64,000 nucleotides of DNA from Anaerococcus urinomassiliensis (GTDB lineage: Bacteria > Bacillota > Clostridia > Tissierellales > Peptoniphilaceae): contig NZ_LT635782.1 of NCBI RefSeq assembly GCF_900128425.1, positions 721,359-785,358 on the forward strand. Direction: 5' to 3'. Shown one piece after another: positions 25,682 through 45,731 of the stretch. Positions within the stretch are counted from its first letter, which is position 1, and each line of letters starts with the position of its first letter. The position numbers were made by a program, and so were the translations under genes. Under the pieces are notes generated by a model. It worked only from the letters and a program-made list of their open reading frames with translations, was not told the DNA's origin and searched no databases.

Positions 25682-27373
25682 TTATTCTACACTATCAATT
25701 ACTTCTTTCATAGCCTTGATCATTTCATCTTTCTTTGTATCAGAACCATCTTTGCTATCACTTATTGCATTGACATAAATCTTGATTTTTGGTTCTGTTC
25801 CAGATGGTCTAAGTGCAAGCCATGAGTCATCTTCAAAGTAATATTTCAAAACATTTGATTTTGGAAGGCCAGTATCATCAAATTTGTAGTCAATAATCTT
25901 AGCTGTTTTTAGGCCAGCAAGTTCATCTATAGGATTGTTTCTAACTTCTTCCATAATTCTTCCGATTCTTGCTTGTCCATCAAGGCCGGTTAGGGTGATT
26001 GATACAACTTCGTTGGCATAGAATCCGTGTTCTTGATAGATATCTTCAAGTACATCTAGCAAGGATTTGCCTTGTTTTTTGTAGTATCCTGCCATCTCAG
26101 ATATCATCATTGCAGAGTTTACAGCATCCTTGTCCCTTACAAAATCCTTGTAGTTATAACCTATAGATTCTTCAAAACCAAATACGAACTTACCTTCACC
26201 AGTTCTTTCTAGTTCATTTGCTACTGCATAAATGTTTTTAAATCCTGTTAGAACGTCATATTTTTGAACTCCGTATTTTTCACAAATAGGACTAATCAAA
26301 TCTGTTGATACAAGAGATTTTACTACAGCTGGATTTTCAGGAAGTTCTCCATTTTCCTTTAAGGCTGATAGGATATAGTTGGTTAAAAGTGATCCAATCT
26401 TATTGCCTGTTAAGAATACATACTCTCCATTCTCATCTTTTATTTCTACAGCACATCTATCTGAATCAGGGTCTGTTGCTAGTAATAAATCTGCATCTAG
26501 TTCTTTGCCAAGTTTTTCTGAATACTTGAAAGCAGCTGGGTCTTCTGGGTTTGGATATCCTACTGTTGTAAAGTTTGGATCTGGATTTTCTTGTTCTGCG
26601 ACAACGTATATATTTTTAAATCCACGTTCGTCTAATATTCTTCTAACTAGTTTGTTACCAGCTCCATTTAGTGGAGTATAAACAATTTTGATATCTTTAT
26701 CTATATCTTCATTAATTGTACAATCAAGTACTTCTTTTACATAGTCTTCTATCAAGTCATCACTAACCCATTCGATTATGCCATCTTCAATCCCCTTTTC
26801 AAAGTCTATACGTGGAATTTCGAAAAAGTCAGGGTGCTCAGCAATGTGGCCTAAAATTTTGTCTGCAGTTTCATCTAGGATTTGGCTGCCTTCGCTGTTG
26901 TATGCCTTGTATCCATTGTATTCCATTGGGTTGTGGCTTGCTGTAATCATTACTCCGGCAGCTGTTTTAAGGTGTCTAACTGTGTATGATAAAACTGGAG
27001 TTGGTTGAATTTCCTTGTGAATGTAAACCTTGATGCCATTAGCAGCAAAAACTTCTGCTGTTACGCGAGCGAATTCTTCTGATTTGTGACGTACGTCATA
27101 TGAGATTGCAACTCCTGCTTTTTTAGCATCCTCGCCCATTTCAGCAACTGTATCGGCAAATCCCTGGCTTGCTTGAGCAACCATGTATTCGTTCATACGG
27201 TTGGTTCCTGCACCTAGTTTGCCACGAAGACCTGCTGTACCAAATTCTAAGGAAGAATAAAACCTATCCTTGATTTCTTCGTCATTGTCTTTGATCTCTT
27301 CTAGTTCTTTTTTTGTCTGATCGTCAAATTTGTCATTGTTGTACCACAAATTAAAAGATTCTTTATAGTCCAT
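25682..27373 (-). CDS. pgcA: phospho-sugar mutase (phosphoglucomutase/phosphomannomutase)
   Basis: At 563 residues it fits the PgcA-type alpha-phosphoglucomutases. The phosphoserine loop is TASHNPMEYNG (Ser146), the metal-binding loop ATDPDSDR lies near 300, the sugar-specificity motif FGFEESIGY near 405 and the phosphate-binding RPSGTEPKIK near 525. It interconverts glucose 1- and 6-phosphate, joining glycogen turnover to glycolysis. It is the last gene of the glycogen operon and overlaps the pullulanase end by 11 bases. Confidence 0.92.
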   Translation of the reverse strand: MDYKESFNLWYNNDKFDDQTKKELEEIKDNDEEIKDRFYSSLEFGTAGLRGKLGAGTNRMNEYMVAQASQGFADTVAEMGEDAKKAGVAISYDVRHKSEEFARVTAEVFAANGIKVYIHKEIQPTPVLSYTVRHLKTAAGVMITASHNPMEYNGYKAYNSEGSQILDETADKILGHIAEHPDFFEIPRIDFEKGIEDGIIEWVSDDLIEDYVKEVLDCTINEDIDKDIKIVYTPLNGAGNKLVRRILDERGFKNIYVVAEQENPDPNFTTVGYPNPEDPAAFKYSEKLGKELDADLLLATDPDSDRCAVEIKDENGEYVFLTGNKIGSLLTNYILSALKENGELPENPAVVKSLVSTDLISPICEKYGVQKYDVLTGFKNIYAVANELERTGEGKFVFGFEESIGYNYKDFVRDKDAVNSAMMISEMAGYYKKQGKSLLDVLEDIYQEHGFYANEVVSITLTGLDGQARIGRIMEEVRNNPIDELAGLKTAKIIDYKFDDTGLPKSNVLKYYFEDDSWLALRPSGTEPKIKIYVNAISDSKDGSDTKKDEMIKAMKEVIDSVE

Positions 27374-29258
27374 TTTTTCCTCCTAAATGGTAAACATTTA
27401 TTGATAGACCATCTACATATAGGTCTGCTTCTATCTTCTTACTTGTATTTTTACCCTCTTTGTTAAAGATATTGTCAATTCTAAGTTTTTTATCTCCTAT
27501 AAAACTTTCTATTGATCTTCTTGGGATTATTTCTCCATCTTGGCCGACATTTATTACAACGAGATTCTTTAAACCTTCATATTCCAAACTATAAATTATC
27601 ATAGAATCCTTTAATCCATCCATAAACTTTAGATTGCTGCGAATAAATGTTGGATCAGTTTTTGTAAAGGCCTTCAATGATTTTCTTAGTTCTATCAAAT
27701 CTTTGGTGTAGTTGAAGATATTCAGGTGGTCTTCTTTTTCCTTCCAATTAATAGCATTTACAAAAAGTGGTGAATTGTAAGAATTCCTGTCATTTTTCTT
27801 AGTATGGTTAAATTCATTTCCCTCATATAAAAACACCTTGCCAAATGATAGGAAAATCATTCCTATTGCAAGCTTCACATAATCATCTATTTGATCCAAG
27901 TTTTTAAGAGAAATCTGCAATTTGTCATATAAAATCAAATTGTCGTGGCAATTAAAATAATTTATTGACTCGCTTGCATCATCTGCAAAACCACTCCTTA
28001 GGTCATCATAGGCGATAGAGCCAGCTATGGATTGTTCTATAATAGGCTTTAAATAATAGTCCCCCTGGATGTAGCCTGTCCCATAGGAATCAGTATCGCC
28101 CTTTATTGCATCTCGAAAAATGTCATTAAAGACTCCAAAACCATTAGATCTTTGTGAACCTTTAATAGTGTGAAGATCATATGGAAGGGTTGTTTCAAGA
28201 GCCATCCATGGTTCTCCATAGATAATTATGTTGGGATTAATCTTTCTAAGTTCTTTAACAGCAAGTTTTATGGTATCAAGGTCTATTACGGCCATAAGGT
28301 CAAACCTAAAGCCATCAATCTTATACTCCTTAACCCAATATTTCAAAGAGTCAATTATTAGTTTCCTTACAAAGGGTCTCTCGCTTGCTAGTTCATTACC
28401 CACTCCAGTAGCATTGGAAAAATTCCCATCATCAGTCATCCTATAATAATAATTTTTACCAAGTGTATTTAGATTTGAATCATAAGACTTAAATGTGTGG
28501 TTAAATACGACATCCATTACAAGGGCTATATTTTTTTCATGAAACTTTTGAATCATTTCTTTAATTTCAAATATCCTATTTGTAGGATCATCAGGATCTG
28601 TAGCATAAGATCCTTCTGGGTTAAAATATAGCTCAGGGTCATAGCCCCAGTTGTAGTTATCATCATCAAAAAATCTATCATTTGATTCATCAACACTTAT
28701 AAAGTCATATATAGGCAAAAGCTGAACATGGCTTATGCCAAGGTCAACTAAATTATCAATGCCTGTGGCAAGTCCCTTATAGGCAGTTCCCTCCTGGCAT
28801 AGGCCAAGATACTTGCCTTTGTACTTTACTCCACTAGTATCATCAGCTGTATAATTTTTGACATTAAGTTCATATATTATAGCTTCATTTTCTGGTATTT
28901 GTGGTACTTGCGTCTCTAGAAATCCATCAGGATTTGTTTTTTCCATATCACAAACTACAGAATACATAGAATTTATAGAAGAAGCAAAGGAGTAGGGGTC
29001 AGTCACCATGTATTTGTCATCCACAAAATACGAATAATAATATCCTTCATAATCTCCTGATAAAGTAACTTGGTAGATATCATACTGAGATTTTTCCATC
29101 TTTATAAAATCTTTTCTTGGATTTCTATAGTCTTTTGATATGGCCAGATATATTTGGTCGACTGATGGCGCAAAAACTCTAAAAGTAGTTTCATCTTTAC
29201 TATATATGGCTCCAAGTTTTATATCTTTAATTTGTTCATAGCTAATATTATTTATCAA
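27363..29258 (-). CDS. pulA: type I pullulanase (alpha-1,6 debranching enzyme), TTG start
   Basis: An N-terminal CBM48-like domain (about residues 15-100) leads into a GH13 catalytic barrel with the pullulanase motif YNWGYDP (about 202-208), DVVFNHT, nucleophile FRFD (Asp320), acid GEPW (Glu349) and HDN (Asp439). So, unlike its neighbours, all three catalytic acids are kept. It hydrolyses alpha-1,6 branches of glycogen or limit dextrins in the cytosol; there is no signal peptide. The start is a TTG nine bases after AAGGA, overlapping the phosphorylase-like gene by 11 bases. The next ATG would cut the CBM48. Confidence 0.9.
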   Translation of the reverse strand: MINNISYEQIKDIKLGAIYSKDETTFRVFAPSVDQIYLAISKDYRNPRKDFIKMEKSQYDIYQVTLSGDYEGYYYSYFVDDKYMVTDPYSFASSINSMYSVVCDMEKTNPDGFLETQVPQIPENEAIIYELNVKNYTADDTSGVKYKGKYLGLCQEGTAYKGLATGIDNLVDLGISHVQLLPIYDFISVDESNDRFFDDDNYNWGYDPELYFNPEGSYATDPDDPTNRIFEIKEMIQKFHEKNIALVMDVVFNHTFKSYDSNLNTLGKNYYYRMTDDGNFSNATGVGNELASERPFVRKLIIDSLKYWVKEYKIDGFRFDLMAVIDLDTIKLAVKELRKINPNIIIYGEPWMALETTLPYDLHTIKGSQRSNGFGVFNDIFRDAIKGDTDSYGTGYIQGDYYLKPIIEQSIAGSIAYDDLRSGFADDASESINYFNCHDNLILYDKLQISLKNLDQIDDYVKLAIGMIFLSFGKVFLYEGNEFNHTKKNDRNSYNSPLFVNAINWKEKEDHLNIFNYTKDLIELRKSLKAFTKTDPTFIRSNLKFMDGLKDSMIIYSLEYEGLKNLVVINVGQDGEIIPRRSIESFIGDKKLRIDNIFNKEGKNTSKKIEADLYVDGLSINVYHLGGKNGL

Positions 29259-31494
29259 AACTTCTTTTCCTTTTTAATAAGTCATCTAGGTTAAATTTGC
29301 TAGCCCATATGAAATTTTGCATACTATTTTGTGTCCATTTTTCCTTGTCTATATAGTCTTTTTGCATATCTTTTCTTAGGTTCACAAGATTTTCTAGGTC
29401 TAGGAATACATTAAATGAATCATTGTATAGTAGTATTTCGTCATATAAGTTTTTAAAATCATATGGGAAAGCTTCCTTAGGCTCATTTAATAGCCTGTCA
29501 ATAGTATATTTTACTATTTTGTTTTGATAAATGATATCATTAGCAATATATTTTCTTTCTTTTCTTATTGCCTCATAAGTTTTATAATCATCATCTAATA
29601 GATAAAATTCATTAGCAATATCCAAATTTTCAACAATTCCTGCCTTAGTTGAAATCACATTTGACATATTGTATAGACAGTTTATTATATCAAAGTTTTG
29701 ATTATCCATTAATGGATGGGCTAGGTTAGAATATACATCTGCCGCTGGATAAAGTATTCTCAGGTCTTTAACCCCAGTATTTTCTACAAAAATAATCTTG
29801 ATTTTCTTACTTATAATCTTATCTGCTTCTATAAGTTTTTTAAGGGCTAGAATAAACTTTATGGTTTCCTTTGCCACATAGTAACCCTCATTGGCCTTGC
29901 CAGAAAAAATATAAGTTTTTGGTACAAAATAAGCATTTGTATTATCTCTTAGATAAAAATATTCATAGGCAATTTCTAGGGCATTTAGTATTTGCCTTTT
30001 GCTTTCGTGAATTATAGATAGCTGCAAATCAAATATTGAATAAGGATTTATGGATGGATCTTTCAAATATTTGCTTAGCTTTACTTTATTATAGAATTTA
30101 ATTTCATCTAGGCTATCGATAAAGTCTTTGTTCTCTTTTAGATAAATAAGCTTCTTGCTATCATTTCTATAATCATTGATATTATATTCTCTAAGAAGAT
30201 CATAAAGCTTAAGGTTTGCAGATTGACCGTACATTTGCCTATCGCTTCCCATGTTCATATAGGAAGTATTGTTTGATATTGACTTGTTTTCAAAAAGCAC
30301 CTTAGATAAGAAGATATATTCCCTGGATAGGACTATATTAATATTTTTAAAAATCATCTGTCCATTTTCTATTAAAGGCAAATAGCTTTCTGATTTTCCT
30401 AGTTCTGTTTGTATGTCGATAATAGTACTATAAAGTTCTGGATTCAGCTTTCTTATTTCATCGGCTGGATAGTTTTCTAGTGAATCATCTGTTATAGAAA
30501 ACACTAGGTGGTAGAATATTTCCCTTGTATAAGCTATAGCTTTTCTCATAGTGAATTTATGTTCTCTTGTAAGGATTCTGATAAATTCGACTAAGGCTAG
30601 GGTCGGATGAATGTCGTTTATAATAACTTTAGTTTGTTTATTGATATTATTTATATCCTCATAATACAAGATGTATCTTCTTACAAAGTCTCTCATAGCT
30701 GATGCTGCAAAGAAATATTCTTGTTTTAACCTTAAAATCTTGCCCTCATATGAAGAATCGTCTACATAAAGAAACTGAGTAATTGAAAGGTTATTAATAT
30801 AATCCCCATAGGCATTGATTATATCCCCATTAGAAAACTCGTTAACATCTATTACTGAAGTTGGCTCAGATTTAAAAAGTCTAAGTGTATTTACAAATTT
30901 AGCATCAGATGAAAGTATGGGCATGTCGTAGGTTACAGTCTTGTGGTTTTTCCCATATATTTCTATTAGATTTGTAAAAGATTTTTGGTGTTCCCAATTT
31001 GACCCGTGTTCTAACCATGAATCTGACCTTACTTCTTGCTTACCGTTGGCTATAACCTGCTTAAAATCACCTGATTCATAGCGAAGTGCGTAGGCTGTGG
31101 CCTTTATCTTTTGATCTGTTAGAGCATTTATAAGGTAGGAAGAACCCATGCCCATATCACCAATGCCGAGGGCTGGGTCTAGGTCATAAGCCATGATAGA
31201 ATCATAATCAAAGCCAATTTCACCAATGGCTGCCTTAATCTCATCTTCAATATCAAGTTTATATATTATGTTTGATAGGAAAGACCCAGGCAGATACTCA
31301 AAACTTAATATATAGACTTCGTAACCCTCTTTTATTTTCTTGGAAGAGACCCAAGTCTTGCCTACACTTTCCATAATATAACGGCATAGGCAATCATAGA
31401 TTTCCCTTTCTCTTGCTGTGTTTAGGTCTTTAGCATAAAAAGAATACAAATAATTTTGTATTCTTTCTATGATAGTATTCTTATTAATTTTCAT
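29248..31494 (-). CDS. glycogen phosphorylase-like protein lacking the PLP lysine (predicted pseudoenzyme)
   Basis: Similarity to GT35 phosphorylases runs the full length (748 aa): LRLKQEYFFAAS, VIINDIHPTLAL, SIFDLQLSIIHESKRQ, KANEGYYVAK, IIFVENTGV and LYPAADV all align. Active-site residues are changed. The GNGGLGRLAAC loop reads GIGDMGMGSSY, the NGV/TNG-ITPRRW segments are missing, KRIHEYKRQ reads SIIHESKRQ (phosphate-binding Lys and Arg lost), and EASGTGNMKF is replaced by a segment with NMS, losing the Schiff-base Lys (about residue 611). I infer no phosphorolysis; glycogen or enzyme binding may remain. The start is the ATG one base after the glgA TAG. Confidence 0.8.
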   Translation of the reverse strand: MKINKNTIIERIQNYLYSFYAKDLNTAREREIYDCLCRYIMESVGKTWVSSKKIKEGYEVYILSFEYLPGSFLSNIIYKLDIEDEIKAAIGEIGFDYDSIMAYDLDPALGIGDMGMGSSYLINALTDQKIKATAYALRYESGDFKQVIANGKQEVRSDSWLEHGSNWEHQKSFTNLIEIYGKNHKTVTYDMPILSSDAKFVNTLRLFKSEPTSVIDVNEFSNGDIINAYGDYINNLSITQFLYVDDSSYEGKILRLKQEYFFAASAMRDFVRRYILYYEDINNINKQTKVIINDIHPTLALVEFIRILTREHKFTMRKAIAYTREIFYHLVFSITDDSLENYPADEIRKLNPELYSTIIDIQTELGKSESYLPLIENGQMIFKNINIVLSREYIFLSKVLFENKSISNNTSYMNMGSDRQMYGQSANLKLYDLLREYNINDYRNDSKKLIYLKENKDFIDSLDEIKFYNKVKLSKYLKDPSINPYSIFDLQLSIIHESKRQILNALEIAYEYFYLRDNTNAYFVPKTYIFSGKANEGYYVAKETIKFILALKKLIEADKIISKKIKIIFVENTGVKDLRILYPAADVYSNLAHPLMDNQNFDIINCLYNMSNVISTKAGIVENLDIANEFYLLDDDYKTYEAIRKERKYIANDIIYQNKIVKYTIDRLLNEPKEAFPYDFKNLYDEILLYNDSFNVFLDLENLVNLRKDMQKDYIDKEKWTQNSMQNFIWASKFNLDDLLKRKRSFDK

Positions 31495-31495
31495 A

Positions 31496-32926
31496 CTAGG
31501 CTCTTGTTTCATCATATAAATCTTTATATTTTTTAGCTGACATTTGCCAGTCTATATCGCTTTTCATTGCATTATTAACAAGTCTATTATGTGCTTCTTT
31601 ATTATTTTTATAAATATTTATAGCGTTTTTGATTGTAAATAATAACTCATGGGCATTGATATTTGAGAAAGAATATCCTGTACCCTCACCTGTGTATTCA
31701 TTGTAAGGAATAACCGTATCCTTAAGGCCACCTGCCTCACGAACTATAGGCAAAGCTCCATAGCGCATAGCAATTAGCTGGCTGATTCCACAAGGTTCTG
31801 AGATTGAAGGCATAAGGTAAAAGTCACTAGATGCATATATTTGGTGAGCTTCTTGGCCACCAAAATAAATTCTTGCTGAAAGTTTTTCTGGATATTTCCA
31901 AGCAAAATATTTTAGCATTTCTTCATAAGTATAGTCACCAGTACCTAGGGCTACAATCTGGATATCTTCTTCCAATAGCTCATCTAATATGTACCTTACA
32001 AGGTCCATACCCTTCATTTCGTTTAACCTTGTTACCATACCAATCATTGGTACATCTTCTCTTTGTGGTAGACCGTATTGTTTTTGTAAGGCTAATTTAT
32101 TGTTAACTTTTTTGTCTATACTATCTATGTCAAAATTTTGATTTATAAGTTTATCCGTTGCAGGATTCCATTCATTATAGTCTATACCGTTTACAATGCC
32201 TGATAATTTGTAATCATATTCACGAATAACCCCATCCAGACTCTCTCCATAGAATGGGTAGTGGATTTCACGAGCATAATTTTCTGAAACAGTATTGACA
32301 GCAGTAGCATGGATTATTCCAGCTTTCATAAAGTTAATTGCATCATAATATTTCAAATCATTTTCGTTAAAATATCCACCATCAAGACCAGCCAGTCTCA
32401 TTATATCTGGGTTAAATACGCCTTGGTATTTCAAATTGTGGATGGTAAATAATGTTCTTATATCGTTATAGTAGCTATCCCCATGCCTAAAATCATTTAC
32501 AAATACATTGACCATAGCCGTATGCCAGTCATTAGAGTGGATAATGTTTGGTTTAAAGTCTATTTCTTTTGGAAGTAGGGTACAAGCTTTTGAGAAGAAA
32601 ATGAATCTTTCTGCATCGTCATCAAAGCCATAAGGATATCCCCTATCAAAGTATTCTTGATTATCAATGAAATAATAGCAGACTCCATCATAATCGAGTC
32701 TATAAACTCCTGCGTATTGGTGTTTCCAATCTAGGTCTACATAAAACTCAGTGACCTTTTCCATTTTTGAAAGATATTTTTCGTCGATAGAACCATACAT
32801 AGGGATTACAGCTCTGACATCAACGCCGATCTTTTTAAGTTCTTTTGGTAGAGATCCAGCAACATCGGCTAGACCTCCTGTCTTGATAAAAGGTACTGCT
32901 TCACTAGCTAGAAAAAGTACATTCAT
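31496..32926 (-). CDS. glgA: glycogen synthase (ADP-glucose-dependent)
   Basis: The GT5 N-terminal motif KTGGLADVAGSLPKEL, which binds ADP-glucose, the HNLKYQGVF segment near 165 and the C-terminal SISEPCGISQLIAMRYG (catalytic Glu) are intact. The enzyme adds glucose from ADP-glucose to the non-reducing end of alpha-1,4 glucan. The start MNVLFLAS is fixed by GGAG at ideal spacing and lies two bases after the glgD stop. At 476 aa the length is standard. Confidence 0.96.
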   Translation of the reverse strand: MNVLFLASEAVPFIKTGGLADVAGSLPKELKKIGVDVRAVIPMYGSIDEKYLSKMEKVTEFYVDLDWKHQYAGVYRLDYDGVCYYFIDNQEYFDRGYPYGFDDDAERFIFFSKACTLLPKEIDFKPNIIHSNDWHTAMVNVFVNDFRHGDSYYNDIRTLFTIHNLKYQGVFNPDIMRLAGLDGGYFNENDLKYYDAINFMKAGIIHATAVNTVSENYAREIHYPFYGESLDGVIREYDYKLSGIVNGIDYNEWNPATDKLINQNFDIDSIDKKVNNKLALQKQYGLPQREDVPMIGMVTRLNEMKGMDLVRYILDELLEEDIQIVALGTGDYTYEEMLKYFAWKYPEKLSARIYFGGQEAHQIYASSDFYLMPSISEPCGISQLIAMRYGALPIVREAGGLKDTVIPYNEYTGEGTGYSFSNINAHELLFTIKNAINIYKNNKEAHNRLVNNAMKSDIDWQMSAKKYKDLYDETRA

Positions 32927-32928
32927 TT

Positions 32929-34050
32929 TTAGCTCCATTCTTCCATTACTTCATTTTTTGATGATACAAATGGGTGAACCCTGTTACCAAATAATTTCAC
33001 GTTGTTTCCTATCTTTGTTCCCTTATCAGTTATAACAAAGTTAAGTATTGCGTCATTACCAATAACTGTATCTTGGAAGATAACTGAATTTTTGATAACA
33101 GCACCCTTTTTAACTGTAACTCCCCTAAAGACTATTGAATTTTCAATCTCACCTTCTATAATAGCACCATTTGCAACAAGAGAGTTTTTAACCTTACTAT
33201 CTTTTGTATATGATGTTGAAGGTTCATCCTTAGACTTGGTATAAACTAGACCATCTTGGTAAAATAAGGAGTCGTATAATTCTTCGTCTAAAAGCTTCAT
33301 ATTTGCTTCAAAGAATGAAAATGTATCCATAATAATCTCAATATGCTTCTCAGTCCTATAAAAATCAATGTTTAAATCTTCTGGTAGAGAAAATATTGCT
33401 GTAAGAAGTGATGAAATAGTATTTCTCTCAACCGCATATCTTAATACCTTGATTAGAACATCTCTTTTTATTAGTATTGAACCTGCGAAAAGATCGAATT
33501 CATCCGATAAACCTAGGTTAGTACCAAGGCTTACTGGATTATTATTTTCATCAGAATTTATAATCTTTCTATTTAGATAAAAACCATCGTCATCGCGCAT
33601 TCTTTGTGTAAATATCAATACATCACTATCATTTGATTTTATATATTCTTTTGCATCGCTTATATCAACCTTTGAAATGTACATTGGATTGGTAATAAAA
33701 ACATATTCTGCATTAGAATCCTCAATACCTCTAATAGTGTCATAATATGTTTCAACTTCGCTAGGATTTGCAATACCGTAATTTGGAGGAATTATTGTAA
33801 GACCACCACGTCTGCGGTTAAGTTCCCAACTTCTACCATTTCCTATGTGATCTAAGGTTGATCTCATCTTCCTACCTGCAAATAGTATCACATTGGTAAT
33901 ATCATAATTTGTCAGATTTGACAAAGTAAAGTCAATAATCCTATACCTTCCACCAAATGGTAGCATATAATCTGGTCTAACCTTGCACAATTCATCATAA
34001 TTTCCAGAATCAAACTCTGAACTATACACTAAAGCTAAAATGCTATCCAT
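32929..34050 (-). CDS. glgD: GlgD, non-catalytic subunit of ADP-glucose pyrophosphorylase
   Basis: The 373-residue protein has the nucleotidyltransferase fold with LPFGGRYRIIDFTLSN but lacks the GlgC substrate loop GGQGSRL; the equivalent reads YSSEFDSGNYDEL. The C-terminal left-handed beta helix is present (SIVFRGVTVKKGAVI). In Firmicutes GlgD is inactive alone and boosts GlgC in a GlgC/GlgD heterotetramer. It is immediately downstream of glgC, with one base between the genes. Confidence 0.93.
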   Translation of the reverse strand: MDSILALVYSSEFDSGNYDELCKVRPDYMLPFGGRYRIIDFTLSNLTNYDITNVILFAGRKMRSTLDHIGNGRSWELNRRRGGLTIIPPNYGIANPSEVETYYDTIRGIEDSNAEYVFITNPMYISKVDISDAKEYIKSNDSDVLIFTQRMRDDDGFYLNRKIINSDENNNPVSLGTNLGLSDEFDLFAGSILIKRDVLIKVLRYAVERNTISSLLTAIFSLPEDLNIDFYRTEKHIEIIMDTFSFFEANMKLLDEELYDSLFYQDGLVYTKSKDEPSTSYTKDSKVKNSLVANGAIIEGEIENSIVFRGVTVKKGAVIKNSVIFQDTVIGNDAILNFVITDKGTKIGNNVKLFGNRVHPFVSSKNEVMEEWS

Positions 34051-34051
34051 C

Positions 34052-35185
34052 TTATTCCTCCTCGATTCCTTCTGAACTTACAAGATAAACCTTATCATCG
34101 CCTTCTTTGCCTATATTTTCTGTAATCTCAATATCTTCAGCAACTACACAGTTGTAAATCTTAACCCCTGCCTTAACCGTAGATCCATTTAATAAGACAC
34201 TGTCACAAACTTCAGCACCTTCTTCAACTTTAACATTTGAGAATAAAACTGAATTCTTAACTTTGCCATTAATCACACAAGCTTCATTAACTAGAGCATC
34301 TTCAAGTATACCTTCTTTGCCAATCCTGTGTGGTGGCAAGTTTAGGCTTGTAGTATATATTTTCCAATCTTCGTCATAAATCCTTAGCTCATTATTAGGA
34401 TCGATAAGGTCGAGGTTAGCTTGCCAGAAACTCCTTACAGTTCCAACATCTTTCCAATATCCATCAAACTTATAGACGTAAAGAGGTTTGCCATCATTAA
34501 GCATTTTAGGGATAATATCTTTACCAAAGTCATTTGAAGAATCAGGATTATCATTATCTTCTATTAGGGCCTTACGTAGCACTTTCCAATTAAATACATA
34601 AATTCCCATAGATGCAAGATTAGATTTTGGATCTTCTGGTTTTTCTTCAAACTCAGTGATTTTGCCATCTTCATCAGTATTCATAATACCAAATCTGCTA
34701 GCTTCATCCCAATCAACTTCCATTACCGCTATAGTAGCATCAGCACCCTTTTCTTTATGTATATCAAGGAGTTTCCTATAATCCATCTTGTAAATATGGT
34801 CACCTGATAATATCAAAACATATTCTGGATTGACGCTATCAAGATATTTAATATTTTCATAAATAGCAGATGCGGTACCTTCGAACCACTTACCCCCATC
34901 TTCAGTATAATATGGTGATAATATTCTTAATCCACCGTTATTTCTATCATAATCCCAAGCAGAACCAATACCTAGGTGACGGTTTAAAAGCTGTGGCTTA
35001 TATTGAGTCAAAACACCAATATCCCTAATCTCTGAATTGGTAGAATTACTTAAAGCAAAATCTATAATTCTGTATTTTCCACCAAAAGGAACTACAGGTT
35101 TTGCCATATCTTTAGTCAAGGCCTTAAGACGTGAACCTTGACCACCAGCCAATAGCATAGCTACTGTCTTATTTGAGTTTCTCAT
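34052..35185 (-). CDS. glgC: glucose-1-phosphate adenylyltransferase, catalytic subunit
   Basis: The ATP loop [14 protein letters not shown] (about residues 11-24), [19 protein letters not shown] and the catalytic Asp region [10 protein letters not shown] are all intact, and a C-terminal beta-helix follows. It makes ADP-glucose and PPi from ATP and glucose 1-phosphate, the committed step of glycogen synthesis. The start is the ATG five bases after GGAGG; an earlier ATG would overlap that SD. It is the first gene of the operon glgC-glgD-glgA-glgP-like-pulA-pgm, divergent from ssrA. The 5' leader contains a small CCCAG/CTGGG hairpin. Confidence 0.96.
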
Positions 35186-35295
35186 TGCATCCTCCATTGC
35201 GCATAATTATTTTCTTATTATATTAATACCCAGTAAAGCTGGGCGTAATTAGAAAAACCTTTTCTTATTATATATTTTACAAAATATCTCAATTT

Positions 35296-36069: not shown

Positions 36070-37461
36070 TTATAAATTCCACTTTATAGCATCCATTTCA
36101 TAAAGAGTTCCTATAATGTCTGATTTAAATAGATTTTTCTCACCATACACTCTACTTGTCATTACATATTGCCCATTATTAATAAAGATTTCGACCGAAG
36201 ATGTATCTGAATATATACTAATATCATCTATTTTTTCGATCCTTATTTTTCTCTCGCATCTTCCATATCCACATTCGCCTAGTTTTAGGCTTAGGATTTG
36301 ATCCTTGTAGGTTAATTTTGCATCAGATCTTAGGTATATTTCAAATTCTCCATCAATATCTTCAGAAATAAATTCAAATGTTTGGTAGAAATAATTTTCG
36401 TTCTTTCTTATTTCTATTTTTTTATTTATTAAATTTTCTATTTCTTTTATTGGTTTTTGCAATAGTTTATTGTCTGACACTTTTAGCTCTCTAGGAAGAG
36501 TCAATGCGTGTTGCCAGTTATTTTTAACTGTCGGATTTGTATAAGAGGCATCTGGCATGCCCATCCATCCTATTAGAATTCTTCTGCCTTTTTCATCTTC
36601 AAATGTTTGTGGAGCGTAAAAATCAAAACCATAGTCTAGTTCTACGAATTCTCCAAAGCTATAGGTCTTTGCTTTTAAGTCTACATCTATTGGAAAATAG
36701 CCAGATTGATATATGTTTTGGTATTTGAATTCTTCACTTTCCAAGCCTTGGGGAGATACCATAAGGAATTTCTTTCCATCTAGTTCAAAGAAATCTGGAC
36801 ATTCCCACATATATCCAAAGTCGTAGTTTGTAGTGATTTCCATATGATAGGCAAATTTTTCTAAGTCATTTGATCTATATACTATGACCTTACCCTTATT
36901 GTTTTTATCTCTGGCGCCCAAGAAAAGATAGTAATTTCCATCTTCTTCATAAATCTTTGGATCTCTAACATGTCTAGTCAAATCCTTTGGATAGTCATCA
37001 TTGGATAAAATCAATTCTTTTTTATGGTAAGTAAATCCATCTTCTGATACGATTTTGATTGTGTTGTGGTCACGCCCATCGTTGATATAATCGTAATTAC
37101 CAGGATATTTGACATTGCCAGTATAAAAAAAGTTTATTTTATTATCTTTTATAAAGGCAGAGCCAGAATAGGCTCCAACTTTATCAATATTTGTATCTGC
37201 AAATATAAACGGTTCATGGTACTTATAATTTATAAAGTCTTTTGTTGTAACATGGCCCCAAATAATATTTTTTCTAATGGCATGAAGTGGGTCAGCCTGA
37301 TAATAAATATGATATGTCCCATCAAGATGACATAGTCCATTGGGATCATTGAGCCAGCCTGTAATAGGGCTTATATGGTATTTAAGATTAAATGGATCAT
37401 TAATCTTTTCTTCTATTTTATTTTTTTCAAATTCTTTATTAAAATATTCTTTGCTATACAT
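36070..37461 (-). CDS. scrB: sucrose-6-phosphate hydrolase (GH32)
   Basis: The GH32 motifs are all present: GWLNDPNG with nucleophile Asp39, RDPKIY (transition-state Asp), and ECPDFF with the acid Glu. A C-terminal beta-sandwich follows. The 463-residue cytosolic enzyme splits sucrose 6-phosphate into glucose 6-phosphate and fructose. Its ATG overlaps the stop codon of the PTS gene by one base (TAATG), a tight translational coupling, and this pairing is the main evidence for sucrose specificity. Confidence 0.92.
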   Translation of the reverse strand: MYSKEYFNKEFEKNKIEEKINDPFNLKYHISPITGWLNDPNGLCHLDGTYHIYYQADPLHAIRKNIIWGHVTTKDFINYKYHEPFIFADTNIDKVGAYSGSAFIKDNKINFFYTGNVKYPGNYDYINDGRDHNTIKIVSEDGFTYHKKELILSNDDYPKDLTRHVRDPKIYEEDGNYYLFLGARDKNNKGKVIVYRSNDLEKFAYHMEITTNYDFGYMWECPDFFELDGKKFLMVSPQGLESEEFKYQNIYQSGYFPIDVDLKAKTYSFGEFVELDYGFDFYAPQTFEDEKGRRILIGWMGMPDASYTNPTVKNNWQHALTLPRELKVSDNKLLQKPIKEIENLINKKIEIRKNENYFYQTFEFISEDIDGEFEIYLRSDAKLTYKDQILSLKLGECGYGRCERKIRIEKIDDISIYSDTSSVEIFINNGQYVMTSRVYGEKNLFKSDIIGTLYEMDAIKWNL

Positions 37462-39392
37462 TAACTAATCCTAATTATATGGTCTCCTACTTCTTTTTGG
37501 CCTTGGTCTACATTTATTGTTTTTGATTCGTCCACATCCATCAAGACTAGCATGGTTTGTGTTGAGTATCCTGCCTCTTTGATTACTTGAGGATCCATTT
37601 CCATAAGCAAGTCCCCTTTTTTAACAGCATCCCCCTCACTAACAAAAGATTTGAATCCCTTGCCTTCTAAGTTTACTGTATCAATTCCTGCATGAATTAG
37701 GATATTGATACCATTTGATGTTGAAAGTCCAATAGCATGTCCTGTAGGAAATACTGTTTCTACCTTGGCATCACAAGGAGCGAAAATTTGATTAGAGCTT
37801 ATGTCAATTGCTACGCCATCTCCAAGGGCCTTTGAAGCAAATGCACCATCTTCTGATTCACTTATTGGTTTTACTAGACCTTTCATAGGTGAAAATAGCT
37901 CCAATTCTCCAATTTCGTCATTTGTAGCAATTAATTCTTTATTAGTTGGTCCGTTTTTTACTTTACTTTCATCATCTTTGTCAACTTGACGAAGCATACC
38001 TGACTTATCAAAGAAAATTGTTAGGCCAAATGAAACTCCAAAGGCAAGAATCATTCCTATGCCAAAGTCTAGCCAACTTTCTGGTCTTATGGATATAAAT
38101 CCTGGTATACCTGCAGCTCCTAGGGCTATGGCTAATACATGACGAAAGGCAAGCCAAGCACTTCCTACTGCTGAACCAATAATAGCAGCTATAAATGGAT
38201 AGCGCAATCTTAAGTTAATACCAAACATAGCAGGTTCTGTGATACCTAGTAGGGCAGAAACCCCAGATGCTGCCGCAGTTGATTTCATTTTTTCATTTTT
38301 TGTTGTCATAAGAACCGCTAAAACAGCCGCTCCTTGAGCAACGTTATTCATTGAAGCAGTTGGGAATATGAATGATCCACCTGCGCTAGTTGTAGCCTTA
38401 GCTATAAGTTGGGTTTCTATTGGAATGAAGCTGTGATGCATGCCAGTCATTGTAATTGGTGCATAGAACAATCCAAACAAAGCTCCGCCCAAAAATCCTA
38501 AGGTATTATACATTGATGTAATACCTACAGTTAACAAGTCACCTGCTGTTCTTAATAGTGGACCAACAAAGGCAAATGTAATAAATCCTGTAATCAGTGT
38601 TGCAAGCAAAGGCGTTGTTAAGTTGTCTAGCCATGTAGGTGTTACCTTGTGAAGTCTAGTCTCGATTTTTGCTAAGATCCAAGCTACAGCAAGTACTGGC
38701 AATACTGTTCCTTGGTAACCTACTGCTGGTATATCCCAACCAAATATATTCCACAAAGGAATATCTCCAGCAGGAGTTGCCGCCAAACTGTAAGCATTTA
38801 ATAAGTCTGGATGGACCATTATCATGCCCATTGCAGCACCTAGGTAAGGATTACCTCCAAATTTTTTGGTAGCTGAAAATCCTATTAGTACAGGTAAAAA
38901 TGCAAAGGCAGCTGATGAAAAAGTATTTATCATCTGTGCAAGACCTGCAATGCCAGGATAAAGACTTATGATTGAGTCACTTCGGCCATTAAAAAATGGC
39001 GCTGTCAATATGTTATTTAGTCCCATCAAAAGACCGCCAGCTACTATTGCAGGTATTATTGGCACAAAAATATCTGAAAGAGTTTTTACTGCTCTTTGTA
39101 ACCAATTACCTTCTTTTTCCACTGGTGCATCGCTTATCTTCTCATCCCCAATAATTTTTAGCACTTCATCAGTAACTAAATTTACTTTTCCAGATCCTAA
39201 GATGATTTGATACTGATTGTTTGATAGGTTAGTTCCCTTCACATCATCTAGGTCCATAATAGCTTCATCATTCCTTTTTGAAAAATCTTTTAGATGAAAT
39301 CTAAGCCTTGTGGCACAATGTTCTGCTGATATAATGTTATCTTTTTCGCCGACATTTTTTATAATTTCTTCGGCTAATTTCCTATTATCCAT
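37461..39392 (-). CDS. scrA: sucrose-specific PTS transporter EIIBCA
   Basis: Domain order: EIIB (about 1-85, phosphocysteine in SAEHCATRLRF, Cys26), EIIC with about ten membrane helices (about 105-460), and glucose-type EIIA at the C-terminus (about 500-640, catalytic His in ILIHAGIDTV). HPr phosphorylates EIIA, then EIIB, then the incoming sugar. The linked scrB supports sucrose; a trehalose or beta-glucoside transporter would have a similar sequence. No regulator gene is adjacent, so CcpA or a distant ScrR may control it. A TATAAT lies about 20 bases before the SD. Confidence 0.9.
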   Translation of the reverse strand: MDNRKLAEEIIKNVGEKDNIISAEHCATRLRFHLKDFSKRNDEAIMDLDDVKGTNLSNNQYQIILGSGKVNLVTDEVLKIIGDEKISDAPVEKEGNWLQRAVKTLSDIFVPIIPAIVAGGLLMGLNNILTAPFFNGRSDSIISLYPGIAGLAQMINTFSSAAFAFLPVLIGFSATKKFGGNPYLGAAMGMIMVHPDLLNAYSLAATPAGDIPLWNIFGWDIPAVGYQGTVLPVLAVAWILAKIETRLHKVTPTWLDNLTTPLLATLITGFITFAFVGPLLRTAGDLLTVGITSMYNTLGFLGGALFGLFYAPITMTGMHHSFIPIETQLIAKATTSAGGSFIFPTASMNNVAQGAAVLAVLMTTKNEKMKSTAAASGVSALLGITEPAMFGINLRLRYPFIAAIIGSAVGSAWLAFRHVLAIALGAAGIPGFISIRPESWLDFGIGMILAFGVSFGLTIFFDKSGMLRQVDKDDESKVKNGPTNKELIATNDEIGELELFSPMKGLVKPISESEDGAFASKALGDGVAIDISSNQIFAPCDAKVETVFPTGHAIGLSTSNGINILIHAGIDTVNLEGKGFKSFVSEGDAVKKGDLLMEMDPQVIKEAGYSTQTMLVLMDVDESKTINVDQGQKEVGDHIIRIS

Positions 39393-43609: not shown

Positions 43610-44074
43610 ATGATAGGAAAAATTGTAGAAGAAATGTTCAAACAACCTACAGAAAATATAATGATTCCAGCTAGTGATGTTGCTACAGTTCACGAAGACG
43701 ATAACCTAGTCCATGCTATCTTGGTCTTGTCATCCTCTGGCTATCAAACTATTCCAGTCCTTGATAATAAAAATAGGGTTAGAGGTCTTATATCTATATC
43801 AAATATAGTCACTTCAGCCCACGAACTTTCCATTTTTGATGAGGACCAACTGGCTGATTTTAAAATTTCTGAGGTTATGAATCAGATGGTTCCAATGCTT
43901 TTTGATAATTATAATCTTGAAGACGTACTAAGGCTTTTGGTAAATAATAACTTTATATGTATCACTCACAAAAACGGCTATTTCTTGGGGATTATACCTA
44001 GAAAGATAGTGCTAGAAAGATTTACCTACATAGCCCACACTATAGAAAATGAATATAAGCTTACAAAAAAATGA
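43610..44074 (+). CDS. cbpB: CBS-domain protein, likely c-di-AMP-binding CbpB/DarB
   Basis: The 154-residue protein has two CBS motifs (about residues 15-70 and 85-145). It matches B. subtilis DarB (YkuL) in layout: IMIPASDVATV, LVHAILVLSSSGYQTIPVLD, and NNNFICITHKNGYFLGIIPRKIVLE. In its relatives this protein binds cyclic di-AMP and, when free, activates the stringent-response synthetase Rel and pyruvate carboxylase. The ligand here is inferred from homology. It stands alone on the plus strand and shares a bidirectional terminator with the GlgB-like gene. Confidence 0.85.
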   Translation: MIGKIVEEMFKQPTENIMIPASDVATVHEDDNLVHAILVLSSSGYQTIPVLDNKNRVRGLISISNIVTSAHELSIFDEDQLADFKISEVMNQMVPMLFDNYNLEDVLRLLVNNNFICITHKNGYFLGIIPRKIVLERFTYIAHTIENEYKLTKK

Positions 44075-44100
44075 TGAGTTTTGACACCCATCATTTTTTT
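44069..44100. terminator. bidirectional terminator shared by cbpB and the GlgB-like gene
   Basis: Stem AAATGATG/CATCATTT with a 12-base loop, with A-run on one side and T-run on the other, so it can stop transcription from both strands. It overlaps the cbpB stop. Confidence 0.88.
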
Positions 44101-45731
44101 ATTTCAAATACACACGCTCCAAAGTCTTCTATAAATATTGTCTCGTTTTTATTAATCTTTCCATTAATATTACCTTTTCCCCCATATTTAAGGTCAGAAG
44201 AATTGATAAGTTCCACTAAGTCGTATGGAGATTTTATCTCATAGTCTATATCAGTAAAGTTTATTATTACAAGCAATTTCTTATCTTTAAATTCTCTAAT
44301 ATAAGCGTAGAGACTGTATCCTTCAACATCTAGAAGTTTGGTAGTTGAACTTATATTAGATAGCTCATCTCTTTTAAGGTAAAGTTTAGAAATATCTTTA
44401 TAATAATCATTAAGATGAACTTGCTCTTCGCTTAGTTTATCCAAATCTATGTGATCATAAACTGAAAAAGTTAAAGCAGAACCTATTTCATCTCCATTAA
44501 AGAGTAATTTTTTGGAATTTAAACTATATAATAAAGTAAGCATGGCCTTGTATTGTTTAAACTTATCATTGCTTCCATTTATTTTCATAAATAAGCTAGC
44601 CTCATCAAGGAAGCTGTCAATATAATTAAAGCCTAAGATTTTCTTGCTATTATCTGAAGTAATCAAAGAATTTATCTCTTTTTTGTAAGAATCGCGTTTG
44701 TATGGCAAATCTTGCATGGATCTTACTATAGGTCTTAAGCTATAATCTAAGCAATAGTCAAAGTCGAAGTTATATTGGTAGATGCCATTAAAACTTGCGA
44801 GGGCCAGAGACTTATTTTGGTGAATTTCTTCTATCAAGTCTTCTAATAGCTCTATCCACTTATCATTTTCTCCCCTAGACTCATCGCCCTGCCAATAGAT
44901 AATGTTTTCAATATTTGTAAGCATTATTCCATCAAGGTTATATTCCTTAAGCCAAAAATTAACTGCTGATTTTAGATAAGACTTTGTAAAATCTTTACTT
45001 GGGTCAAAGTTCATATCCCCGTAGTAAGAATACTTGATATCATCGTAATCGTAAGCAAAATACTCTTCTAAACTTTTTATAAAATATGGATCACAATCAA
45101 AGTGCGCTAAGTCCAAATCTATTAAAACTCCAAGCTTTTCCTTGTGGCATTTGTCGATAAATTTCTTAAAATCAAGGGCAGATCCATATCGTTTGCTATA
45201 GGCAAATAAGCCTGAGCTTGTAAAGCCCATAGACTTATAGTTAATGTATTCACTTACTGGCATAAATTTAATGTGGGTGAAGTTTTGCTCTTTGGCGTAT
45301 TTGATTAGATCATCAAGGGAGCTTTCATCATCTAGGAATGATCCAATATATACTTCATAAATGTTTAATTTATCTGTTTTAATTTTTTTATTTTTGAATT
45401 TGTAGGAATCATCTGAAATTATCGAACATTTTTCTTCAAGATTAATCTCTTTGGCAAAGGGATCTACTATCTTTCTCACTTCATTGTTAGAATCAGTAAT
45501 TAGAAATTGGTACCTATCTCCTTTTTTGGCTTCTTTAACTGTTACAGTATAGATACCTGAGGCATATCCACGCATTTTATTAGGCTGCCAATCGTTAAAA
45601 TCACCTATGATTTCAACTTTCTTTGCATTTGGATGGCATAATCTAAACATAAATCCCTTATTCTTTTTTACTGGTCCAAAGTAGCTATAGGCATCATTTG
45701 ACTTACCATTTAAATATTCTTTTGTATCCAT
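44091..45731 (-). CDS. branching enzyme (GlgB)-like protein without catalytic residues (predicted pseudoenzyme)
   Basis: CBM48 (about residues 12-95: KKVEIIGDFNDWQ) is followed by a GH13 barrel. The layout is that of GlgB: IYEVYIGSF, FTHIKFMPVSEY, GFTSSGLFAYSKRYG, DFKKFIDKCHKEKLGVLIDL, KKLLFNGDEIG. The nucleophile motif GLRVDAV reads GIMLTNI (Asp to Thr at 272), the acid Glu region reads LALASFNG (Ser at 313) and the HDE motif reads NYID (Ile at 371). All three catalytic acids are gone. At 546 aa it is shorter than GlgB (about 620-730). I infer glycogen binding without branching activity. It is monocistronic, away from the glg operon. Confidence 0.8.
   Translation of the reverse strand: MDTKEYLNGKSNDAYSYFGPVKKNKGFMFRLCHPNAKKVEIIGDFNDWQPNKMRGYASGIYTVTVKEAKKGDRYQFLITDSNNEVRKIVDPFAKEINLEEKCSIISDDSYKFKNKKIKTDKLNIYEVYIGSFLDDESSLDDLIKYAKEQNFTHIKFMPVSEYINYKSMGFTSSGLFAYSKRYGSALDFKKFIDKCHKEKLGVLIDLDLAHFDCDPYFIKSLEEYFAYDYDDIKYSYYGDMNFDPSKDFTKSYLKSAVNFWLKEYNLDGIMLTNIENIIYWQGDESRGENDKWIELLEDLIEEIHQNKSLALASFNGIYQYNFDFDYCLDYSLRPIVRSMQDLPYKRDSYKKEINSLITSDNSKKILGFNYIDSFLDEASLFMKINGSNDKFKQYKAMLTLLYSLNSKKLLFNGDEIGSALTFSVYDHIDLDKLSEEQVHLNDYYKDISKLYLKRDELSNISSTTKLLDVEGYSLYAYIREFKDKKLLVIINFTDIDYEIKSPYDLVELINSSDLKYGGKGNINGKINKNETIFIEDFGACVFEIKK

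Follow-up and report, generated by a model that had tools for sequence, protein, structure and literature searches.

The window analysed here is a stretch of 64,000 nucleotides of Anaerococcus urinomassiliensis (contig NZ_LT635782.1, positions 721,359 to 785,358 of the forward strand). It contains a gene for a homolog of the branching enzyme GlgB, which we call psGlgB. As the earlier note had claimed, this gene lies outside the glg operon and is convergent with the gene of a c-di-AMP-binding protein, CbpB; the two convergent genes are separated by 16 bases, and the operon, which lies in the same window, contains no glgB. The features are given below in coordinates of the window, apart from the last two entries (on stretches L011 and L012), which are two further branching enzymes of the 2.19-Mb genome with intact motifs.

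27363..35197, minus strand: glg operon with pulA, psglgP, glgA, glgD and glgC, without glgB (glgA and glgC named by eye)
29248..31515, minus strand: psGlgP, a glycogen-phosphorylase homolog without the PLP lysine (TIGR02093, 369.2 bits, below the cutoff of 552.9)
32929..34050, minus strand: GlgD (TIGR02092, 302.7 bits, above the cutoff of 236.6)
43610..44074, plus strand: CbpB, a c-di-AMP-binding CBS protein, convergent with psGlgB (NF041630, 161.2 bits against a cutoff of 125)
44063..44102, both strands: hairpin with flanking A/T runs between cbpB and psGlgB (folding compared with shuffled sequences)
44091..45731, minus strand: psGlgB, a GH13_9-type branching-enzyme homolog without catalytic residues (ORF, Pfam, NCBIfam, fold model)
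44619..44621, minus strand: codon of Ile371 of psGlgB, position of the third Asp, the stabiliser (alignment)
44793..44795, minus strand: codon of Ser313 of psGlgB, position of the acid/base Glu (alignment)
44916..44918, minus strand: codon of Thr272 of psGlgB, position of the nucleophile Asp (alignment)
45453..45677, minus strand: CBM48 domain of psGlgB, residues 19-93 (Pfam PF02922, 2.3e-11)
L011:9626-11440: intact second GlgB, 604 amino acids, adjoining a uridine-kinase-like gene (named by eye)
L012:7906-9900, plus strand: GBE-type branching enzyme, 664 amino acids, after an EF-G-like gene (named by eye)

The psGlgB reading frame starts with ATG and encodes 546 amino acids, 58 fewer than the intact GlgB of the same genome. 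The Pfam families CBM_48 (44.3 bits) and GlgB_N (27.3 bits) are both found above their cutoffs, which bears out the GlgB layout with a CBM48 domain that had been read from the sequence before; the Alpha-amylase and Alpha-amylase_C families barely exceed theirs. Among the NCBIfam models GlgB is the nearest, yet psGlgB reaches only 228.2 bits against a cutoff of 577 for NF008967 and 182.8 against 463.95 for TIGR01515. The intact GlgB of the genome passes both equivalog cutoffs (604.4 and 506.2). The low score of psGlgB is by itself no proof of inactivity because the GBE-type enzyme of the same genome, whose motifs are intact, passes neither GlgB cutoff (270.8 against 577). According to Pfam and to a structure model whose input alignment included five canonical GlgB sequences, the CBM48 domain, the barrel and the C-terminal beta domain have the order and the fold of GlgB. 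The model is a confident one and predicts an intact, GlgB-like fold.

The chemistry of GH13 enzymes depends on an Asp nucleophile, a Glu acid/base and an Asp stabiliser. When psGlgB is aligned with the intact GlgB of the same genome, Thr272, Ser313 and Ile371 stand at the nucleophile Asp, the acid Glu and the third Asp, respectively. In the predicted structure, T272 follows the strand 268-271, S313 ends the strand 309-313 and I371 follows the strand 364-368, sites that we take to be the beta-4, beta-5 and beta-7 positions of GH13. Alignment and strand positions thus agree with the replacement of all three catalytic acids, the central claim of the earlier note. When phmmer aligns psGlgB to enzymes of solved structure, gaps fall in region III. 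However, no Glu is present in psGlgB between residues 303 and 351, so that the loss of the acid is independent of the gapped alignment. Compared with the GH13_9 enzymes of known structure (PDB 21jh, 8zqa, 1m7x), psGlgB lacks the triad, the Arg of region II and nearly all of the active-site His residues. A shifted active site using D372, one residue past the stabiliser, was considered and rejected because D372 corresponds to a Glu found without exception in 24 intact paralogs. Moreover, the nucleophile and the acid are without any replacement, and a slip of the register would not restore activity. From these residues we infer that psGlgB would be unable to branch glucan.

A survey of orthologs for shared losses, which the earlier note had proposed, gave a uniform answer. 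The nucleophile Asp, the acid Glu and the third Asp are each missing from their columns in all of 30 genus loci, and the loss is common to all 31 psGlgB rows of the tree described below. Among the matches listed in protein searches, 114 relatives (P0001-P0114) rank above the canonical GlgB rows, and none of the 114 has the catalytic residue at any of the three columns. The nucleophile column of these listed relatives contains S in 34, A in 32, P in 22, T in 8, V in 8, E in 8 and G in 2 proteins; besides the Glu that eight of them have here, the acid and the stabiliser are present in none. The Arg of region II is kept in 0/114, the His of region IV in 3/114 and the His of region I in 4/114. As a control, the second GlgB retains all seven active-site residues checked in 24/24 copies, of which 21 are from the genus. 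A sequencing error or an isolated mutant was rejected as an explanation because the loss is common to the 30 open genus copies and to all 114 listed relatives. The psGlgB of a sister genus (genome G069, L091) has kept the Arg of region II; its nucleophile Asp is replaced by Asn, its acid Glu by Asp and its stabiliser by Ile, so that, judged by its sequence, it resembles an early step towards inactivation. The comparison of all these sequences shows that psGlgB had lost the nucleophile, the acid/base and the stabiliser by the time the genus radiated; in the genus lineage, the Arg of region II had gone by then as well.

The psGlgB gene was found in all 31 genus genomes examined. In 30 of them the frame is open, at identities down to 38%; the sole interrupted copy, in G002 (L113), is split and holds stop codons. 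Among 130 genomes of the family, G069 is the one carrier besides the genus. The gene was not found in G065 and G068, which represent near genera; both genomes are only 81% complete and its absence there is therefore not firm. When a psGlgB profile was run over 249 genomes of the order, the 31 genus genomes and G069 scored at least 551 bits and the best other match 363. From this run and the searches that follow, a wide distribution was rejected. A scan of genome contigs yielded 24 loci, all titled Anaerococcus. Two protein searches, for each of which 8000 candidates were scored, gave 130 and 129 matches, of which the best 120 were used. The listed matches below P0001-P0114 are GlgB-like proteins of 594-652 amino acids with the Pfam Alpha-amylase domain, and the triad is present in the five that were checked (P0115, P0116 and P0118-P0120).

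The second GlgB and the GBE-type enzyme were each matched in 31/31 genus genomes; their active-site residues were checked in 21/31 genomes for the former and in the copy of A. urinomassiliensis for the latter. In the four genomes whose locus was examined, the second GlgB lies beside a uridine-kinase-like gene. The idea that psGlgB replaces a lost branching enzyme was rejected because an intact-looking GlgB and a GBE-type enzyme are present in its own genome. Since both enzymes occur throughout the genus, branching is unlikely to be the trait that selection keeps in psGlgB, and another function must be what is maintained.

A tree of 69 proteins unites the 31 psGlgB rows in a single clade with full support (100/100). 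This clade groups with the second GlgB of the genera g1, g14 and g17 (98/93), apart from the operonic GlgB of other genera. The stem of the clade measures 1.59 changes per column and the tree program flagged a number of its rows as long or as unusual in composition; the exact sister relation is therefore less sure than the unity of the clade. The dN/dS of psGlgB ranges from 0.056 to 0.178 in 11 pairs, which were chosen by hand and are not mutually independent. For instance, it is 0.070 in the G000-G025 pair, in which 16 neighbouring genes have values of 0.018-0.145. psGlgB evolves about 2.2 times faster than the intact GlgB (median over 207 of the 210 pairs of 21 genomes). Thus, psGlgB is one clade that stands beside the intact GlgB and is kept by purifying selection. 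The higher rate and the interrupted copy of G002 are what one would expect from a decaying or dispensable duplicate. However, only one of 31 genus copies is broken, the other 30 are open despite the low identity among them, and dN/dS stays at or below 0.178 in the 11 pairs; psGlgB does not look like a pseudogene, and decay is very improbable. A loss common to the whole clade, together with purifying selection, strongly supports the reading as a pseudoenzyme that the earlier note had put forward.

Which parts of the protein are kept was assessed with 217 columns that are conserved to at least 95% in 24 intact GlgB paralogs and were compared with the 30 genus psGlgB copies. Of these columns, psGlgB keeps 32 at 95% or more, and in a further 61 the residue is still present in half or more of the copies; the remaining 124 are kept by fewer than half, including 73 in which the residue is gone from every copy. 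With domain limits set by us, the N-terminal CBM48 part has 20/27 columns that half or more of the orthologs retain, compared with 69/172 in the barrel (Fisher p 0.0014); the C-terminal domain has 4/18. In the barrel, 103/172 columns are thus kept by less than half of the orthologs, and glucan binding by the old cleft may have been lost. In 19 columns, including those of D372 and S373, one conserved residue has been exchanged for a different conserved one, some of the swaps being conservative, which makes psGlgB look remodelled more than decayed. The switched columns could also be taken as signs of neofunctionalisation, with the old barrel carrying out a different activity by means of new conserved acids. 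Indeed, D372 and S373 are present in 30/30 genus orthologs, and acidic positions follow beta-3 (E or D at 205, D207 in 28/30, E210 in 19/30, that is, in most, and D212 in 26/30) and beta-4 (E275 in 25/30). However, D372 corresponds to the already conserved Glu of the canonical SHDEV motif and not to the stabiliser. D372 follows beta-7, a strand located across the GH13 barrel from beta-3, so that these acids need not form one site. Moreover, the sister-genus copy of G069 has L372 and N207, and residue 210 of the protein encoded in the window is His. We therefore regard a new activity as rather unlikely.

Alternatively, psGlgB could be a soluble sensor or decoy, which binds maltodextrin or glycogen non-productively and either competes with enzymes or reports the glucan level, all without a protein partner. 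Such a role would be in line with the retained CBM48 domain and the intact modelled fold. Furthermore, the stretch WQGDxxRGxN is near-invariant in psGlgB (Q281, R286, G287 and N289 in 30/30) and is shared with FdBE2, for which a complex with maltohexaose has been deposited as a structure. However, contacts to the sugar have been lost with the region II Arg (all 114 listed relatives) and the region IV His (111 of them), and only four retain the region I His. We consider a role as sensor or decoy without a partner to be unlikely.

The glg operon of the window contains a second degenerate relative of a glycogen enzyme, which the earlier note had not mentioned. psGlgP was matched in 31/31 genus genomes. 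The positions of its PLP lysine and its catalytic His are those that we take to be equivalent to the positions of active phosphorylases. The lysine is present in 0/30 loci (29 genus loci and that of G069) and in none of the best 120 of 638 relatives, 114 of which have Asn in this column; the column of the catalytic His is likewise without His in the best 120 of 638. The psGlgP copy of g14 (G065) has a Lys in the PLP column. In the G000-G025 pair the dN/dS of psGlgP is 0.060, and a canonical phosphorylase of 799 amino acids with the PLP lysine is encoded elsewhere in the same genome. Stops occur in six psGlgP matches, five of which still have an open frame of about 750 amino acids; the sixth, in G029 (G029:C1:56531-58249), has two TAA stops and a frame of 571 amino acids. 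Two TAA stops are also found in the second GlgB of G029 (G029:C5:138462-140141), and psGlgB of this genome is open. In other genera of the family (L078-L089, L093), the order of the operon is glgB-glgC-glgD-glgA-glgP-pulA. The operon phosphorylase homologs of other genera lack the GTGNMKF motif in 13/13 cases but keep the lysine in 8/13; degeneration of the phosphorylase thus looks graded and appears to predate the genus. Between the glg operon and recR, GH32-sucrase-like and sucrose-PTS-like genes (named by eye) lie at 36070-39392 on the minus strand; in the stretches examined, the sucrase-like gene was seen in 5/19 and the PTS-like gene in 1/19 other genus loci.

The hairpin between psGlgB and cbpB has a folding energy of -19.0 kcal/mol on the minus strand (z -7.55) and of -11.1 kcal/mol on the plus strand (z -4.26). 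It was not listed by a consensus scan; by its folding and flanking A/T runs it is terminator-like on both strands. The hairpin between psGlgB and the glucosaminidase gene upstream of it is weak (z -1.79, with 10/200 shuffles as good), and promoter-like sites are about as frequent as expected by chance (19 against a shuffle mean of 15.7, sd 4.2). The glucosaminidase gene is found upstream of psGlgB in 12/19 other genus loci, and as it is not general it was rejected as an operon partner.

CbpB faces psGlgB in all 19 other genus loci examined (of 30 other genus genomes), compared with the 12/19 of the glucosaminidase gene. The gap between the two genes is 19-241 bases in 17 loci; in G021 an ORF of 409 amino acids lies in between, and in G025 the genes are on adjoining stretches. 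In Synechocystis, SbtB has been found to bind GlgB in a c-di-AMP-dependent manner (PMC10117731), and DarB/CbpB act on Rel and on pyruvate carboxylase (PMC7900238, PMC8549634, PMC8822347). The action of CbpB on partner enzymes depends on c-di-AMP in other Bacillota; here it could bind psGlgB and thereby link glycogen to this messenger. However, cbpB and psGlgB are convergent and not co-transcribed, and two ORFs intervene between them in G069. Moreover, DnaX and RecR lie on the same side as CbpB in 19/19 loci each (YbaB was called in 16/19) and are as constant as CbpB itself, so that the synteny may be passive. When 24 other family genomes were searched, five, from the four genera g7, g8, g14 and g16, yielded a relative of CbpB (E at most 1.3e-17), and no DnaX was found within 1.5 kb on either side of these five. 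Taken together, the neighbourhood makes a link of psGlgB to c-di-AMP suggestive only, and binding by CbpB seems quite improbable to us.

Having weighed these alternatives, we hold it to be probable, with reservations, that psGlgB is a branching-enzyme pseudoenzyme that serves as a non-catalytic subunit and binds both alpha-glucan and an active glycogen enzyme. It would bind alpha-glucan via the CBM48 domain and possibly via the old cleft; the glycogen binding proposed in the earlier note may apply. The active glycogen enzyme to which it would bind is most likely its paralog GlgB, and psGlgB would set where or how strongly this partner acts, similar to ISA2 for ISA1 and GlgD for GlgC. Against a role as subunit stand the faster evolution of psGlgB relative to the intact GlgB, the position of its gene outside the glg operon, the loss of most of the conserved barrel columns and the Glu that eight of the 114 listed relatives have at the nucleophile column.

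Several comparable proteins have been described. One parallel is the plant protein ISA2 (GH13_11), in which at least four of five conserved catalytic residues vary in every protein examined, whose evolutionary rate is elevated and which is bound by ISA1 as its non-catalytic paralog (PMC12510319). Like ISA2, psGlgB is a duplicate of a CBM48-containing GH13 enzyme that has lost the nucleophile and other catalytic residues in all members examined, evolves at a raised rate and coexists with an active paralog (PMC12510319). In contrast to psGlgB, which derives from a bacterial branching enzyme, ISA2 goes back to a debranching enzyme of green plants; it also possesses an additional N-terminal domain, which psGlgB lacks (PMC12510319). 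Moreover, the partner of ISA2 has been demonstrated, whereas that of psGlgB is putative. GlgD, which is described as the regulatory subunit of GlgC, resembles psGlgB in being the relative of a glycogen enzyme (PMC10395257). However, GlgD is encoded in the operon next to GlgC and has another fold and another step in the pathway, and psGlgB is not encoded beside GlgB. The ectodomains of 4F2hc and rBAT, which belong to the alpha-amylase family, have been called fake or orphan alpha-glucosidases (PMC8537225) and are similar to psGlgB in this respect; unlike psGlgB, they are subunits of animal amino-acid transporters and unconnected with glycogen. Inactive forms are also on record in prokaryotes. 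The branching domain of a chlamydial glgA-glgB fusion has been rendered inactive, and a GH13 column in a table on archaea marks "one inactive isoform" (PMC11046441). The inactive chlamydial domain arose by gene fusion (PMC11046441), whereas psGlgB is a free-standing duplicate beside intact copies. In the literature searched, which was judged by titles and the openings of abstracts and covered few subscription journals, no free-standing dead GlgB of a bacterium was found. GH13 pseudoenzymes are thus already known; what we did not find in that literature is a free-standing one that derives from a bacterial branching enzyme and occurs genus-wide beside intact copies.

The two degenerate proteins of the window also allow a broader and more speculative model. 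GlgD, psGlgP and psGlgB of Anaerococcus could be the non-catalytic partners of GlgC, GlgP and GlgB, respectively, and together form a glucan-bound regulatory scaffold that positions and gates the active enzymes, with psGlgB tied to c-di-AMP through CbpB. We consider it unlikely that this model is correct as a whole.

Irrespective of this model, psGlgB probably helps to control glycogen storage without any chemistry of its own. In plants, ISA2 shows that a non-catalytic GH13 subunit can shape alpha-glucan. If the same is true here, psGlgB would be a genus-wide bacterial counterpart of ISA2, and in bacteria, too, the architecture of glycogen could be set by a protein without chemistry. Moreover, psGlgB and the degenerate phosphorylase that occurs alongside it would offer a compact system for studying why pathways retain dead duplicates. 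The finding also corrects records such as P0077 and P0096, in which proteins of this kind bear the name 1,4-alpha-glucan branching protein; such names would inflate the counts of branching enzymes in the genus.
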